Source: Polyangium spumosum
Lineage (GTDB): Bacteria; Myxococcota_A; Polyangia; Polyangiales; Polyangiaceae
Assembly: GCF_009649845.1 (NCBI RefSeq)
Contig: NZ_WJIE01000004.1
Coordinates: 124,001-188,000 of the forward strand
Length of the DNA stretch: 64,000 nt
Reading direction: 5' to 3'
Of this stretch, positions 13,905-23,526 are shown piece by piece. Within the stretch, counting starts at the first letter, position 1. Each line of letters begins with the position of its first letter. The notes under the pieces are model-generated. The model was not told the DNA's origin. It saw only the letters and a program-made list of their open reading frames with translations, and did not search any database. The position numbers and the translations under genes are program-made.

Positions 13905-14219
13905 ACGTCGCCTGCGACGGGTCCCGCGTCAGCCGCGACGACGCCAGAGTCACCTCCAACCACGTCGGAGTCACCTCCACCCACGCCGGAGTCACCTCCA
14001 ACCACGTCGGAGTCAGCCACGACGACTCCGTAGTCAACTCCACCCACGCTGGAGCCACCCGCAACGACGCCGGAGTCGTCTCGACCCACGCCGGAGCCAC
14101 CCGCAACGACGCCGCCGTCGTCTCGACCCACGTCGGCGTCACCTCCACCCACGCTGGAGTCACCTGCGACGACTCCGCCGTCGTCTCGACCCACGCCGGA
14201 GTCAGCCGACGCGTCGAAA
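13905..14219. repeat. Minisatellite of 15 units of 21 bp
   Basis: About fifteen diverged 21-bp units run head to tail from 13905 to 14219; the best unit cores read GAGTCACCTCCACCCACG or GAGTCACCTCCAACCACG. Unit boundaries fall every 21 bases from 13947 (13968, 13989, 14010 and so on to 14199). Because 21 is a multiple of three, several frames stay open, giving Trp-Val-Glu or Gly-Asp-Ser heptads on the minus strand. None has a ribosome binding site or a recognisable protein around it, so I regard the array as non-coding. It lies 100 bases after the candidate immunity gene and within the 544-base gap before the gene at 14350. Confidence 0.85.
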
Positions 14220-19643: not shown

Positions 19644-20375
19644 ATGAGACGTCCGCCTTGGCGCCCCCTCCTCTCCCTGGGCCTCCTCGGTTGCCTGACG
19701 CTCTCGCTCCTGCCCCTTGGCTGCTCGTCGGCCACGATCTACCGCCCTACCGCGCCCGACGACCGCCCGCGCGTGCCTGAATCCACCGCGGAGCGGCTGA
19801 GGGAATGCGTGGATGAGCTCCGCGGCACGATCAAACCCGGACACTACACGCTGGACGCTTCGGTGAAGGTCGACCAGGAAGGGCGCGTGGTGGAGGTGGA
19901 GACGACGGGCCAGCCCAATCCGGACGTGGGCATTTGCATGCGGATTGCCCTGCGAGGGATGACGCTGCCCGCGGATGTCCTCGAACGGCGCATGCTGCGA
20001 ACGTCCGCGTCGGCGGACGGGCGGGCATTGCCGGATCGGGGGGCGATCGGGGAGGTGGTGACCGTCGTCGTGGTCGTCACGGTCGTGTTCACCGAGGTCA
20101 TCATCGAAGCCTTCGCGATCACGGTCGGCGTGGCGGTCACGGCGACGGTCGCGGCGGGGGCGGCGGAGGCGATTCGGAAGAGGAAGGACCCGGGCGTCGC
20201 GAACTGTCGAAAGCGGCTAAATGACTGCCTGGACAGCAATAAGGGCAGCGAACCGGGGAACAACTACAATACAACGCTATGCCCGACGTGTTTCGATCGG
20301 TGTATGGGCAGCGTCGACAAGAAGTGGCCTGAGCGGCTCGACACAGGGCAATCCTGCATCTATCCGGGATTTTGA
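19644..20375 (+). CDS. Lipoprotein with Val-rich segment and cysteine-rich C-terminus, candidate transferred toxin
   Basis: A 243-residue lipoprotein (ATG 19644) with lipobox PLGC. Residues 40-125 hold an AgmX/TonB-C-like region ('YTLDASVKVDQEGRVVEVET', 'VGICMRIALRGMTLP'). A long Val/Ala/Thr-rich hydrophobic stretch follows ('GEVVTVVVVVTVVFTEVIIE' onward, about residues 133-175). The final 60 residues are a compact cysteine module ('CRKRLNDCLDSNKG', 'LCPTCFDRCMGS'). That last part is compositionally different: by hand count about 52% G+C over 20221-20400, against 67% over 20041-20100. A lipoprotein body, a hydrophobic segment and a foreign-looking C-terminal domain fit a modular toxin such as SitA. 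The downstream gene is the candidate immunity partner. Function inferred, not shown. Confidence 0.66.
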   Translation: MRRPPWRPLLSLGLLGCLTLSLLPLGCSSATIYRPTAPDDRPRVPESTAERLRECVDELRGTIKPGHYTLDASVKVDQEGRVVEVETTGQPNPDVGICMRIALRGMTLPADVLERRMLRTSASADGRALPDRGAIGEVVTVVVVVTVVFTEVIIEAFAITVGVAVTATVAAGAAEAIRKRKDPGVANCRKRLNDCLDSNKGSEPGNNYNTTLCPTCFDRCMGSVDKKWPERLDTGQSCIYPGF

Positions 20376-20383
20376 GTGTGAAT

Positions 20384-21484
20384 ATGAAGGACGAAAGAAA
20401 TTGGGACGCAAAGGCGTTCGCCAAGGCGTGCGGCGCTCTCTTGGTCAAGTCGCTGGAACCAAGCCGGAGCTTCGCCGAGGGCGCCCGTGACTTCCGCAAG
20501 CTCGAGGCGGAGTTCCTGGCGCGCGTGGGCGACGACGAGATCGCGGTGCGTGAGATCCCGCGACGCATCGCTGAGTACATCTTGTCGCTCGTCCAAGACA
20601 AGCGTCCTCCCTTCGAGGTTTGCCGCGAGGCGTGGAACGATATGGTTCGGCTCGGCTTCTCGCACATCGACGTCGAGTGCATGAAGTCCTGGCAGTACGC
20701 GGAGTGCTGCGCGTACGACGAGCGGCCCGACGAGGGGCTCGTGGTGCTCGTGCCGCTCATGGCCAAGCTCGAACAGCGGCTCGAGGAAGCGAGGGGAACG
20801 GAGACGAAGGCGGAATATCCCGCGGACTATTACGAATCCTGGATCGAGCGTCTGGGAATCCGCCGGGACGCACTCGAGGCCCAAAAACGCGGCGAGGTCG
20901 TCTCATGGCTGGAGACCCGCCGCGAGGACGAGGCAGCCCCCCCGATCACCCCCGAAGAAGAGCAGGCCGACGCGCTGCTCGACGAGTTCTTGAAAGCGCG
21001 CCGTGCCGTCTTCAAGACCTATGGCAAAACGCGCGATCGGAGCTTCGCCGACGTCGCGGCCGATTACCGACGGGTCGAGGCGGAGTTCGTGGCGCGCGCG
21101 GGCGAAGGCGAGGCGTTCGAGGCGTGTGTGCTCGAGATGAGGGCATGGACCGCGGAGGCGATCCTCATGGCAGCCTGTTCGCTCCGCGCGCCCTTCCAGG
21201 CCTGCCGAGACGCCTGGGACGAGTTCGTCCGCGTGGGCCAGGACAAGAGCTGGATGTATCCAGATATGTACGTGAAGACCTGCCTCGTGAACAACGAGCC
21301 CGACGCGGGGCTCGCCGTGGTCGAGCCGTGGATCGCCGAGATCGAAGCCAAGCTCCAAGCGAGCAAGGAGCCCTTGCGGCCCCCGGGGGAGACCAGCGTG
21401 GAGCTCGAGCGCCAGCTCGAAGAGCTCCTCGAGCTCCGGGACAAGCTCGTGGCCAATCGAAGGGGCGGAGAGCCGGCGACTTGA
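20384..21484 (+). CDS. Internally duplicated cytoplasmic protein, candidate immunity partner
   Basis: A 366-residue soluble helical protein starting at ATG 20384, nine bases after the lipoprotein stop; a TTG at 20372 would overlap that stop. It consists of two homologous halves. Residues 29-137 and 220-328 share 'FRKLEAEFLARVG'/'YRRVEAEFVARAG', 'PPFEVCREAWNDMVRLG'/'APFQACRDAWDEFVRVG' and 'ERPDEGLVVLVPLMAKLEQR'/'NEPDAGLAVVEPWIAEIEAK'. Each half ends in a charged coiled-coil-like helix. No catalytic motif or export signal is visible. Duplication of a small domain is common among immunity proteins of polymorphic toxin loci, and position supports that role, but the family is unknown to me. Confidence 0.65.
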   Translation: MKDERNWDAKAFAKACGALLVKSLEPSRSFAEGARDFRKLEAEFLARVGDDEIAVREIPRRIAEYILSLVQDKRPPFEVCREAWNDMVRLGFSHIDVECMKSWQYAECCAYDERPDEGLVVLVPLMAKLEQRLEEARGTETKAEYPADYYESWIERLGIRRDALEAQKRGEVVSWLETRREDEAAPPITPEEEQADALLDEFLKARRAVFKTYGKTRDRSFADVAADYRRVEAEFVARAGEGEAFEACVLEMRAWTAEAILMAACSLRAPFQACRDAWDEFVRVGQDKSWMYPDMYVKTCLVNNEPDAGLAVVEPWIAEIEAKLQASKEPLRPPGETSVELERQLEELLELRDKLVANRRGGEPAT

Positions 21485-21981
21485 GGGGCGCGACAAGGCC
21501 CGGCGGATCTCGGTCGGTGTGTAACCATCATCACGGCCGACGCGCCTGAAGGTCACCTGCACACGACCCGAAGGTCTCGTGCGCACGACCCGAAGGTCTC
21601 GCGCGACCGTCTCGAAGCCTCGCCCACACGCCTCGAAGGTGAGTGAACGAACCTCAAGGTCTCGCGCGCACGACCCGAAGGTCTCGTGCGCACGACCCGA
21701 AGGTCTCGTGCGACCGTCTCGAAGTCTCGCCCACACGTCTCGAAGGTGAGTGAGCGAACCCCGAAGGTCTCGCGCGATCGACCCGAAGGTCTCGCGCGAT
21801 CGACCCGAAGTCTCGCCCGATCGCCCCGAAGTCTCGCCCGCCCGCCTCGCAGTCGCGCGCAGGCGCCTCCCACCCTGGCGGCCGCCAGGCGGTTTTCCGC
21901 GCCGCCACCCCCGCGTTCCCACAAAACGCCGCGTTTCCCCCTTCCTCGGCCCCGGCACGGCGCTCGCAAAACGGGCGGGCC
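21485..21981. other. Intergenic region dominated by a minisatellite
   Basis: This 497-base gap runs from the duplicated candidate immunity gene to comM. Positions 21545-21865 are the tandem array described separately. The remaining 116 bases before comM are C-rich, and I see no clear promoter in them. Confidence 0.55.
21545..21865. repeat. Minisatellite of about 15 units of 20-23 bp with 107-bp higher-order period
   Basis: Units cluster around the core CCCGAAGGTCTCGTGCG, with variants of 20, 21, 22 and 23 bp. A block of five units (22+22+21+20+22 = 107 bp) starting at 21566 recurs at 21673 with the same order of unit lengths except for a 23-bp last unit, and with few changes, so the array grew partly by duplicating a five-unit block. 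Two units contain the perfect 12-bp palindrome TCGTGCGCACGA (21577-21588 and 21684-21695). Unit lengths that are not multiples of three argue against coding. The array begins 60 bases after the candidate immunity gene and ends about 115 bases before comM. Confidence 0.88.
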
Positions 21982-23526
21982 ATGCAGGCGACCGCGCTGA
22001 CCTTCATCCTCGTCGGCCTCGACGCGTTCCCCGTGCGCGTCGAGGTCGACTCCGGCCGCGGCCCCGCGGCCTTTCAGCTCGTCGGGCTCGCCGAGGCGAG
22101 CGTGCGCGAGAGCCGGGTGCGCGTGCGATCGGCGCTCCTGCAGATCGGCGTCGCCCTCGACGAGCACGTGATCACCGTGAACCTCGCGCCCGCCGATCTA
22201 CGCAAGAGCGGCGGCGCCTTCGATCTGGCGATCGCCATGGCGGTGCTCGGCGCGCTCGGCAAGGTGCCCGCGGCGTCGCTGCGTGGGCTCGCGTTCCTCG
22301 GCGAGCTCTCGCTCACGGGCGCGATCCGGCCCGTACGTGGCGTCTTGCCGGCGCTCCGGGGCGCGGCGACGCGGGGGCTCGGTCGCGCCGTCGTCCCGCG
22401 GCACAACGGCGCCGAGGCGGCGAGCGTGCCAGGCATCGAGGTCCGCACGGCCGAGCACCTCGGCGACGTGGTGTCGGCGCTCGCGGGTGAGGGCGAGCTC
22501 TCCGCGGCAGGCCCGCGCCCGACGCTCTCGAATGTCCTCGCGGACGACGTCGTGGACCTCGCGGAGGTGCGGGGGCAACACGCGGCCCGGCGCGCGCTGG
22601 AGATCGCCGCGGCCGGCGGGCACAACCTCCTGATGATGGGCCCGCCGGGCGCGGGCAAGACCATGCTGGCGCGGCGATTGCCGACGATCTTGCCGCCGCT
22701 CTCGTACGAGGAGGCGCTCGAGGTGACGGCGCTCCATTCGGTCGCCGGCCTCTTGCAGTCGGATCGTGGCCTCACGCAGGCGCGGCCGTTTCGCGCGCCG
22801 CACCACACGGTGAGCCCCGCGGGCCTCGTGGGCGGGGGCGAGCCGATCCGGCCGGGCGAGGTCTCGCTCGCGCACCACGGCTGCCTCTTCCTCGACGAAT
22901 TGCTGGAGTTCAAGCGCAGCGCGCTCGAGGTGCTGCGGCAGCCGCTCGAGGACGGGATCGTCACGATCTGCCGCGCGCAGAGCCGGGTGACGTTCCCGGC
23001 GAGGCCACTCGTCGTCGCCGCGGTGAACCCTTGCCCGTGCGGGTATCACGGGGACGACAAGCGCCCGTGCGCCTGCTCGGCCGAGCGCGTGCGCGTGTAC
23101 CGGGCGCGTCTCTCCGGGCCGCTGCTCGATCGGCTCGACCTGCAGGTGCCGCTGCCGCCCGTGGACGTCTCGCACCTCGGGAGCAAGGAGCGCGGGGAGG
23201 CGAGCGCGGAGGTGCGGCGGCGCGTGATGGCGGCGCGCGAGGTGCAGGTCGCGCGGCGGGCGGCGGGCGAGGTGAGTGTCGCGACGAACGCCGAGCTCGG
23301 GCCGCGGGACGTCGATCGGGTGGCGACGCCGGACGAGGCGGGCCTCTTGATCCTCGGGCGAGCGGTGGAGCGGCTGGGCCTCTCGGCGCGGGCGTACGGC
23401 AAGGTGCTGCGCGTGGCGCGGACGATCGCGGACCTCGACGGCGGCGGGGCCGTGCGGGCGAGCCACGTGGCGGAGGCGATCCAGGCGCGGCTCCTGGATC
23501 GTGGCGCCCTCTGGCGCGCGCGCTGA
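21982..23526 (+). CDS. comM: YifB/ComM family Mg-chelatase-like AAA+ ATPase
   Basis: A 514-residue protein of full family length. The N-terminal ChlI-like domain is residues 20-145 ('VEVDSGRGPAAFQLVGLAEA', 'VTVNLAPADLRKSGGAFDLA' region). The AAA+ core has Walker A 'GPPGAGKTML' near residue 220, Walker B 'GCLFLDELLEF' and the family-specific 'NPCPCGYHGDD' with 'CACSAERVRVYRARLSGPLL'. The C-terminal Mg_chelatase_C region ends 'VAEAIQARLLDRGALW'. In naturally transformable bacteria ComM is a hexameric branch-migration helicase that extends RecA-made recombination joints. Here it lies directly upstream of recA, 74 bases away, and of ssb, consistent with that role. Confidence 0.93.
   Translation: MQATALTFILVGLDAFPVRVEVDSGRGPAAFQLVGLAEASVRESRVRVRSALLQIGVALDEHVITVNLAPADLRKSGGAFDLAIAMAVLGALGKVPAASLRGLAFLGELSLTGAIRPVRGVLPALRGAATRGLGRAVVPRHNGAEAASVPGIEVRTAEHLGDVVSALAGEGELSAAGPRPTLSNVLADDVVDLAEVRGQHAARRALEIAAAGGHNLLMMGPPGAGKTMLARRLPTILPPLSYEEALEVTALHSVAGLLQSDRGLTQARPFRAPHHTVSPAGLVGGGEPIRPGEVSLAHHGCLFLDELLEFKRSALEVLRQPLEDGIVTICRAQSRVTFPARPLVVAAVNPCPCGYHGDDKRPCACSAERVRVYRARLSGPLLDRLDLQVPLPPVDVSHLGSKERGEASAEVRRRVMAAREVQVARRAAGEVSVATNAELGPRDVDRVATPDEAGLLILGRAVERLGLSARAYGKVLRVARTIADLDGGGAVRASHVAEAIQARLLDRGALWRAR

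Follow-up and report, generated by a model that had tools for sequence, protein, structure and literature searches.

The tandem array described here lies in the window, that is, the whole 64,000-nucleotide stretch of Polyangium spumosum DNA that was analysed, and occupies the 497-bp gap between an ORF of 370 aa and comM/yifB, both on the + strand. The features of this locus are as follows.

20372..21484, + strand: upstream ORF, 370 aa, without a Pfam match at E 0.01
21545..21865, no strand: tandem array of 15 units of 20-23 bp, consensus approximately CCCGAAGGTCTCGCGCGCACGA
21545..21651, no strand: first 107-bp block, units 1-5
21652..21758, no strand: block of units 6-10, the second of 107 bp; its units match those of the first block at a mean identity of 0.916
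21759..21865, no strand: third five-unit set, diverged, also 107 bp
21577..21588, no strand: palindrome TCGTGCGCACGA, first copy
21684..21695, no strand: palindrome TCGTGCGCACGA, second copy, one 107-bp step later
21982..23526, + strand: comM/yifB, Mg chelatase-like AAA ATPase, 514 aa (TIGR00368, 534.8 bits)

TRF resolved the array at a period of 22 (12.5 copies, 21548-21815) and at a period of 107 (2.8 copies, 87% matches, 21548-21849). The scores of 169 and 450, respectively, indicate head-to-tail copies beyond chance, and the array is a minisatellite in the sense used here (a tandem array of 10-60 bp units), in a host species represented by one genome. In the autocorrelation over lags 5-199, lag 107 was the highest (0.72), followed by lags 193 (0.66), 86 (0.53), and 22 (0.50). 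The 107-bp copies at 21540-21646 and 21647-21753 are 91% identical without gaps, and a third copy, 86 bp further on, shows 68% identity. When cut at the repeat core, the units measure 22, 22, 21, 21, and 21 bp in each of the first two sets and 23, 22, 20, 21, and 21 bp in the last. Compared in order, the units of sets 1 and 2 have a mean identity of 0.916, whereas random five-versus-five pairings of the 15 units averaged 0.714 and reached at least the observed value in only 1 of 20,000 draws. A sequence-only reading of this DNA had proposed an array with a 107-bp super-repeat of five units, to be given up if the 107-bp similarity was no greater than that between any two sets of five units. TRF, autocorrelation, and unit alignment confirm the super-repeat at that place, and the comparison of unit sets comes out clearly in its favour. 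The five-unit order it gave also stands, and the deviation of its unit lengths by one or two bases follows from the free choice of cut point. The 12-bp palindrome that it saw in two units was recovered as TCGTGCGCACGA, and its suggestion of stepwise growth by block duplication is consistent with the 91% identity of the successive blocks.

The distance from the end of the array to the ATG of comM (21982) is 116 bp, in line with the approximately 115 bp given earlier. No array was detected by TRF in the 1000 bp upstream of comM in any of five congeners, two of which have just a two-copy repeat there (TRF scores of 54 and 62). A conserved role of the array in comM expression was therefore rejected. 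A coding role was set aside as well: the ORFs crossing the array in several frames continue antisense through the neighbouring genes, and we take them as probable products of chance in GC-rich DNA. A repeat search of 21300-22100 found no pair of inverted-repeat ends at the two borders of the array, and the sole long inverted pair in this interval (21535-21555 and 21998-22018) has one arm within comM. Separately, a palindrome, CTGGCGGCCGCCAG, precedes the start of comM by 106-108 bp, both in the window (21875-21888) and in all five congeners. It is kept regardless of what stands further upstream and is perhaps an operator of comM. In two congeners, G004 (L271 and L253) and G002 (L272 and L248), the gene itself is interrupted close to the Walker A codons, the halves lying approximately 97 kb apart in G004, and a large integrated island within comM of these congeners is likely.

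The DNA of the window array matches 24 places in its own genome, and that of a sister array matches 31. The family comprises 16 noncoding arrays in this genome, counted as those mapped in 17 fetched regions, minus L072 and L074 (both located in CDS-like DNA), plus the window array. The exact unit-core pattern had no match among 84,980 genomes, a set from which the record of the host was possibly left out; weak relatives of the array, one or two each, occurred in three of the five congeners and none in the other two. The family is thus dispersed, nearly species-specific, and satellite-like. As a side observation, the arrays at L058, L060, and L061 are flanked by related DNA (0.5-1.4 kb at 82-88% identity), and the copying of some arrays therefore included a flank.

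The window family belongs to a wider class with periods at multiples of approximately 21.3 bp, which is two helical turns. The background was surveyed in 40 stretches (797 kb), hand-placed approximately 130 kb apart, with some moved or omitted where they came close to stretches retrieved before. Among arrays with a TRF score of at least 80, a period of this kind was found in 11 of 17 noncoding and 10 of 50 coding arrays, whereas by chance 15% of all period values between 10 and 150 would qualify as such multiples. Arrays of the class lie mostly in the noncoding DNA of the genome and cover 0.8% of the sampled bases and 3.0% of the sampled noncoding bases, the latter figure being approximate because the census was a non-random sample and coding DNA was masked by a crude ORF rule. 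For 10 of the 11 noncoding class arrays, the best-scoring period was a super-repeat of 42-86 bp, and the 107-bp order is therefore a habit of the class. The earlier view that such higher-order structure is unusual for a bacterial intergenic array thus fails in the host genome, where super-repeats are the rule for such arrays. For comparison, only four arrays reached a TRF score of 80 in 728 kb from other phyla. A second noncoding array in the window (13928-14208), between predicted genes, has a 21-bp beat, super-repeats of 84 and 105 bp, and an unrelated unit.

Several sister arrays are split in two by inserts of 3-5 kb, which start with GGT, finish with ACC, and encode an IS1-related transposase. 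Elements of the IS1 family have ends starting with GGT and duplicate 8-9 bp of their target. All three transposases searched matched PF03400 above its cut-off (26.4, 30.0, and 36.2 versus 24.1 bits), and all three fell below the cut-off of the NCBIfam IS1 transposase model NF033558 (50.6-64.5 versus 100 bits). Judged from these profile scores, the host transposases are a divergent branch of the IS1 family. Residues D118, D188, and E254, which we take to be catalytic, are invariant in 8 of 8 transposases. A predicted model matched DDE enzymes weakly in fold (ISCth4 best, E 1e-4, TM 0.28), and the transposase profile had no sequence match among solved structures up to E 1. A protein search detected 17 IS1-related copies in the host genome, an assembly of 61 contigs, and every one of them has GGT ends and an exact 8-bp target duplication. 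The elements at L060-L064, L067, and L073 (3-5 kb) also carry passenger ORFs. A passenger protein of 129-157 aa is common to six of eight elements (one was tested and had no Pfam match), and sigma-70-like proteins are encoded by the elements in L061 and L063. Two of the three arrays with shared flanks carry different elements at the same unit site.

Sixteen of the 17 copies lie inside arrays, with periods of 21-22, 42-43, 63-65, 84-87, 106, or 127 bp, and the occupied arrays carry several different unit sequences. Eight insertions are found in seven arrays of the window family, and eight more in five arrays with other units (three in L092, two in L093, and the remainder in L094, L095, and L096). 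Elements are stacked three deep in L092 and two deep in L093 and L064. The exception, L097, is inserted in an inverted repeat, as seen by eye. Reduced to loci, the 17 copies represent 13, of which 12 are arrays (binomial 6e-18 against the 3.0% noncoding background). The list of 17 came from the protein search, and 8 of its members had first been met via arrays; of the nine others, eight are also in arrays. Occupancy of the window family (7 of 16) exceeds that of the other arrays (5 of an estimated total of 132, projected from the 11 found in the 797-kb sample; Fisher 3e-5). The association between arrays and insertions is well supported, and the window array, itself free of insertions, belongs to the family of arrays that is hit most. 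We found no common hairpin at the targets. In 120-base empty sites, folding z was at or below -2 on at least one strand in only 3 of 17 (L095, L096, and L067) and mostly near 0. Hairpins were thus rejected as a general target feature, and they may be relevant for palindromic targets.

The pattern extends to related genomes. In two strains of Sorangium cellulosum, nine of 10 delimited copies are in arrays of 22, 42-44, or 86 bp. Eleven of 17 rows were fetched here, the other six being fragments; L275 could not be delimited and adjoins 42-43-bp arrays, and L281 was scored as a miss, since only 22 bp of contig follow the element, even though its left flank resembles the repeat of L278. Across other Polyangium and nearby genera (27 loci), 7 of 15 delimited copies are in arrays: 4 of 5 in G002 (P. 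fumosum), 2 of 3 in G004, 1 of 2 in G005, 0 of 2 in G003, and 0 of 1 each in G001, G008, and G015. The other 12 loci were undelimited or scored below 19, owing to contig ends or the lack of a matching duplication; L232, whose 9-bp duplication is doubtful, was retained and counted as a miss, and four weak fragments from this search were left out. Among the eight non-array copies, L222, L223, and L234 sit at one point beside a REP-like palindrome, L236, L229, and L240 are at sites palindromic by eye, and L232 and L239 are not. The REP-like palindrome, GATGAACTGCGCNATGCGCAGTTCATC, occurs across G000-G005, where each Polyangium genome has tens to hundreds of matches (61 in the host genome and 221-671 in congeners, on both strands and with many places counted twice). 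Outside the family, only 1 of 49 delimited relatives is in an array (L160, period 145 and 71). These 49 remained from 80 relatives after removal of 26 undelimited copies and, from the 54 delimited ones, of five from Polyangium or Sorangium; L138-L147, which partly duplicate loci of G001, G002, and G005, and L142-L144 and L148, which duplicate Sorangium loci, were not added to the Polyangium and Sorangium counts above.

All 17 host transposases carry a clamp-type motif (QLDLF, QLSLF, QMDLF, or similar, often two) in a C-terminal tail. The motif was found in 22 of 27 transposases of the wider set (one, L238, weak and far from the end) and in 9 of 11 from Sorangium. The five of the 27 that have no motif are one Polyangium copy (L229), two in G015, and L242 and L243, both of which run to a contig end. 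No such motif follows the matched core in any of 69 relatives outside the family. In the predicted model, tail residues 349-420 have pLDDT almost wholly below 50, i.e., they are unstructured. As passages of PMC5371812 and PMC4549789 describe, proteins binding the bacterial clamp share the consensus QL(S/D)LF, transposases from nine insertion sequence families and TnsE of Tn7 have motifs of this type, and TnsE favours replicating DNA. From the motif we infer that the tail of the IS1-related transposases would bind the replication clamp. The copies of G001 and G003 have the tail, yet none is in an array, and the tail is therefore not sufficient for array use.

Explanations that give the arrays a more passive part were weighed against these data. 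Elements could insert widely, without seeking arrays, and persist only where repeats are intergenic and dispensable, as the mostly noncoding location of the class and the occupation of other dispersed repeats in congeners would allow. However, arrays make up 3.0% of sampled noncoding bases and hold 16 of 17 copies. A 21-multiple array lies within 4 kb of 30% of sampled positions and of 16 of 17 IS1-related copies, but of only 2 of 11 other transposases (PF00665 and PF01609 matches, with IS1-related ones removed). Moreover, in some families, separate arrays have their target duplications at one and the same phase of the unit, and we regard such survivorship as improbable. Insertion in arrays could instead reflect a plain preference for a CG-rich, roughly symmetrical site of approximately 12-40 bp, of which the arrays just supply many copies. 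In keeping with this, the 8-mer CGCCCACG or its complement was duplicated within the same unit by five insertions in four window-family arrays, and a profile trained without the tested family put the true phase at rank 1 of 21 for 14 of 31 sites. The profile fits families a, b, c, L219, and L230, but fails in d, e, and L220, which are arrays too, and in non-array sites. Furthermore, noncoding positions with a profile score of at least 10 number 30 in arrays versus 132 outside (38 versus 1266 in all DNA); sequence alone would therefore put most insertions outside arrays, and as a full account we find it unlikely.

A third possibility invokes the host: a nucleoid protein might coat the arrays with two-turn spacing and capture the transposon, by analogy with H-NS-bound DNA, which captures transposons in Acinetobacter and E. 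coli according to PMC11335895. A period of approximately 21.3 bp would place every unit on one helix face, and arrays of unlike sequence do serve as targets; that same diversity speaks against a sequence-specific binder, which would not fit all arrays. We know of no array-coating nucleoid protein of this kind in the host, and consider the idea improbable.

The profile also points to places in the window array at which an element could land, led by 21814, 21610, and 21621. The TCGTGCGCACGA palindromes are absent from the twelve top-scoring vacant places in the window. The following are of interest.

21621..21628, no strand: CGCCCACA, differing by one base from CGCCCACG, the 8-mer that insertions in sister arrays have duplicated; unoccupied, with a profile score of 9.1
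21728..21735, no strand: CGCCCACA at the corresponding position of the next block; unoccupied, with a profile score of 7.1
21814..21821, no strand: CGCCCGAT, top-scoring vacant place within 21400-22000; profile score 12.8, unoccupied

Three known systems resemble parts of this picture. Passages of PMC1525189 describe insertion sequences that target REP palindromes (ISPsy8, ISPa11, ISPpu9, ISPpu10, ISRm22, and others). Like the host elements, they insert into intergenic repeats scattered over the genome, at a set position within the repeat, and the three G001 and G003 copies beside the REP-like palindrome behave likewise, unlike those of the host genome (16 of 17 in arrays). According to these passages, REP-targeting elements use one palindromic target and belong to families IS3, IS110, IS4, IS256, and IS5, whereas the Polyangium elements use tandem arrays of several different units and an IS1-related transposase. 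BrickBuilt of Porphyromonas gingivalis, a 23-bp minisatellite inside a MITE, is described in PMC4596501. It occurs approximately 19 times per genome and shares with the window family a dispersed intergenic distribution, a unit of approximately two helical turns, and confinement, or nearly so, to one species. BrickBuilt has a leader, a tail, and inverted-repeat ends and is itself considered mobile, whereas the window array has no paired ends and the Polyangium arrays receive other elements. Tn7 TnsE and insertion sequences with QLxLF motifs likewise have a short clamp-type motif near the C-terminus, sometimes two (passages of PMC5371812 and PMC4549789); those passages are silent on tandem arrays as targets. 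Among the matches listed for open-licence PMC literature (ISfinder, subscription papers, and preprints being outside this scope), we met neither insertion sequences targeting tandem arrays in myxobacteria nor a report of these arrays. Thus, as far as the passages cited go, REP-aimed insertion sequences and a dispersed bacterial minisatellite are already known, and tandem-array targeting across unit sequences, not met among those open-licence matches, may be new.

Taken together, we think it probable that arrays of the 21.3-bp class are the main landing site of the Polyangium and Sorangium IS1-related transposons, reached via a disturbance of replication and the clamp tail. The arrays would arise and turn over through slippage and block duplication, a process suggested by the observed block identities. 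They may disturb replication through pausing, slippage, and clamps left behind, and the C-terminal QL[D/S]LF-type tail could then tie the transposase to the replication clamp at the arrays; capture by a host protein coating the arrays would be an alternative at this step. The local CG-rich sequence would then fix the cut at a favoured unit phase. Array use with local phase, possibly through the replication clamp, is perhaps the mechanism, and we infer that the array itself is in some respect recognised by the transposon. What results is a stacking of transposons within noncoding arrays, a pattern suggestive of landing pads away from genes; as a counterpoint, copies landing in genes may have been lost by selection. 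For the host, the arrays would serve as safe docking sites. A bolder version, which we offer only tentatively and hold to be rather doubtful, is that this clade recognises tandem repetition itself, as a two-turn beat or an array-induced replication state, whatever the unit, helped by an acquired clamp-binding tail, and that the host keeps regenerating the arrays as docking sites.

These results bear on the standing question of how transposons choose harmless sites. They offer a natural experiment, a clade that inserts almost only in arrays sharing spacing and not sequence, with a tail that is missing in outside relatives. It thereby becomes testable whether the transposase responds to periodicity, to a bound protein, or to a replication state, and a first biological context is gained for the numerous arrays of 21-bp period in these large genomes.
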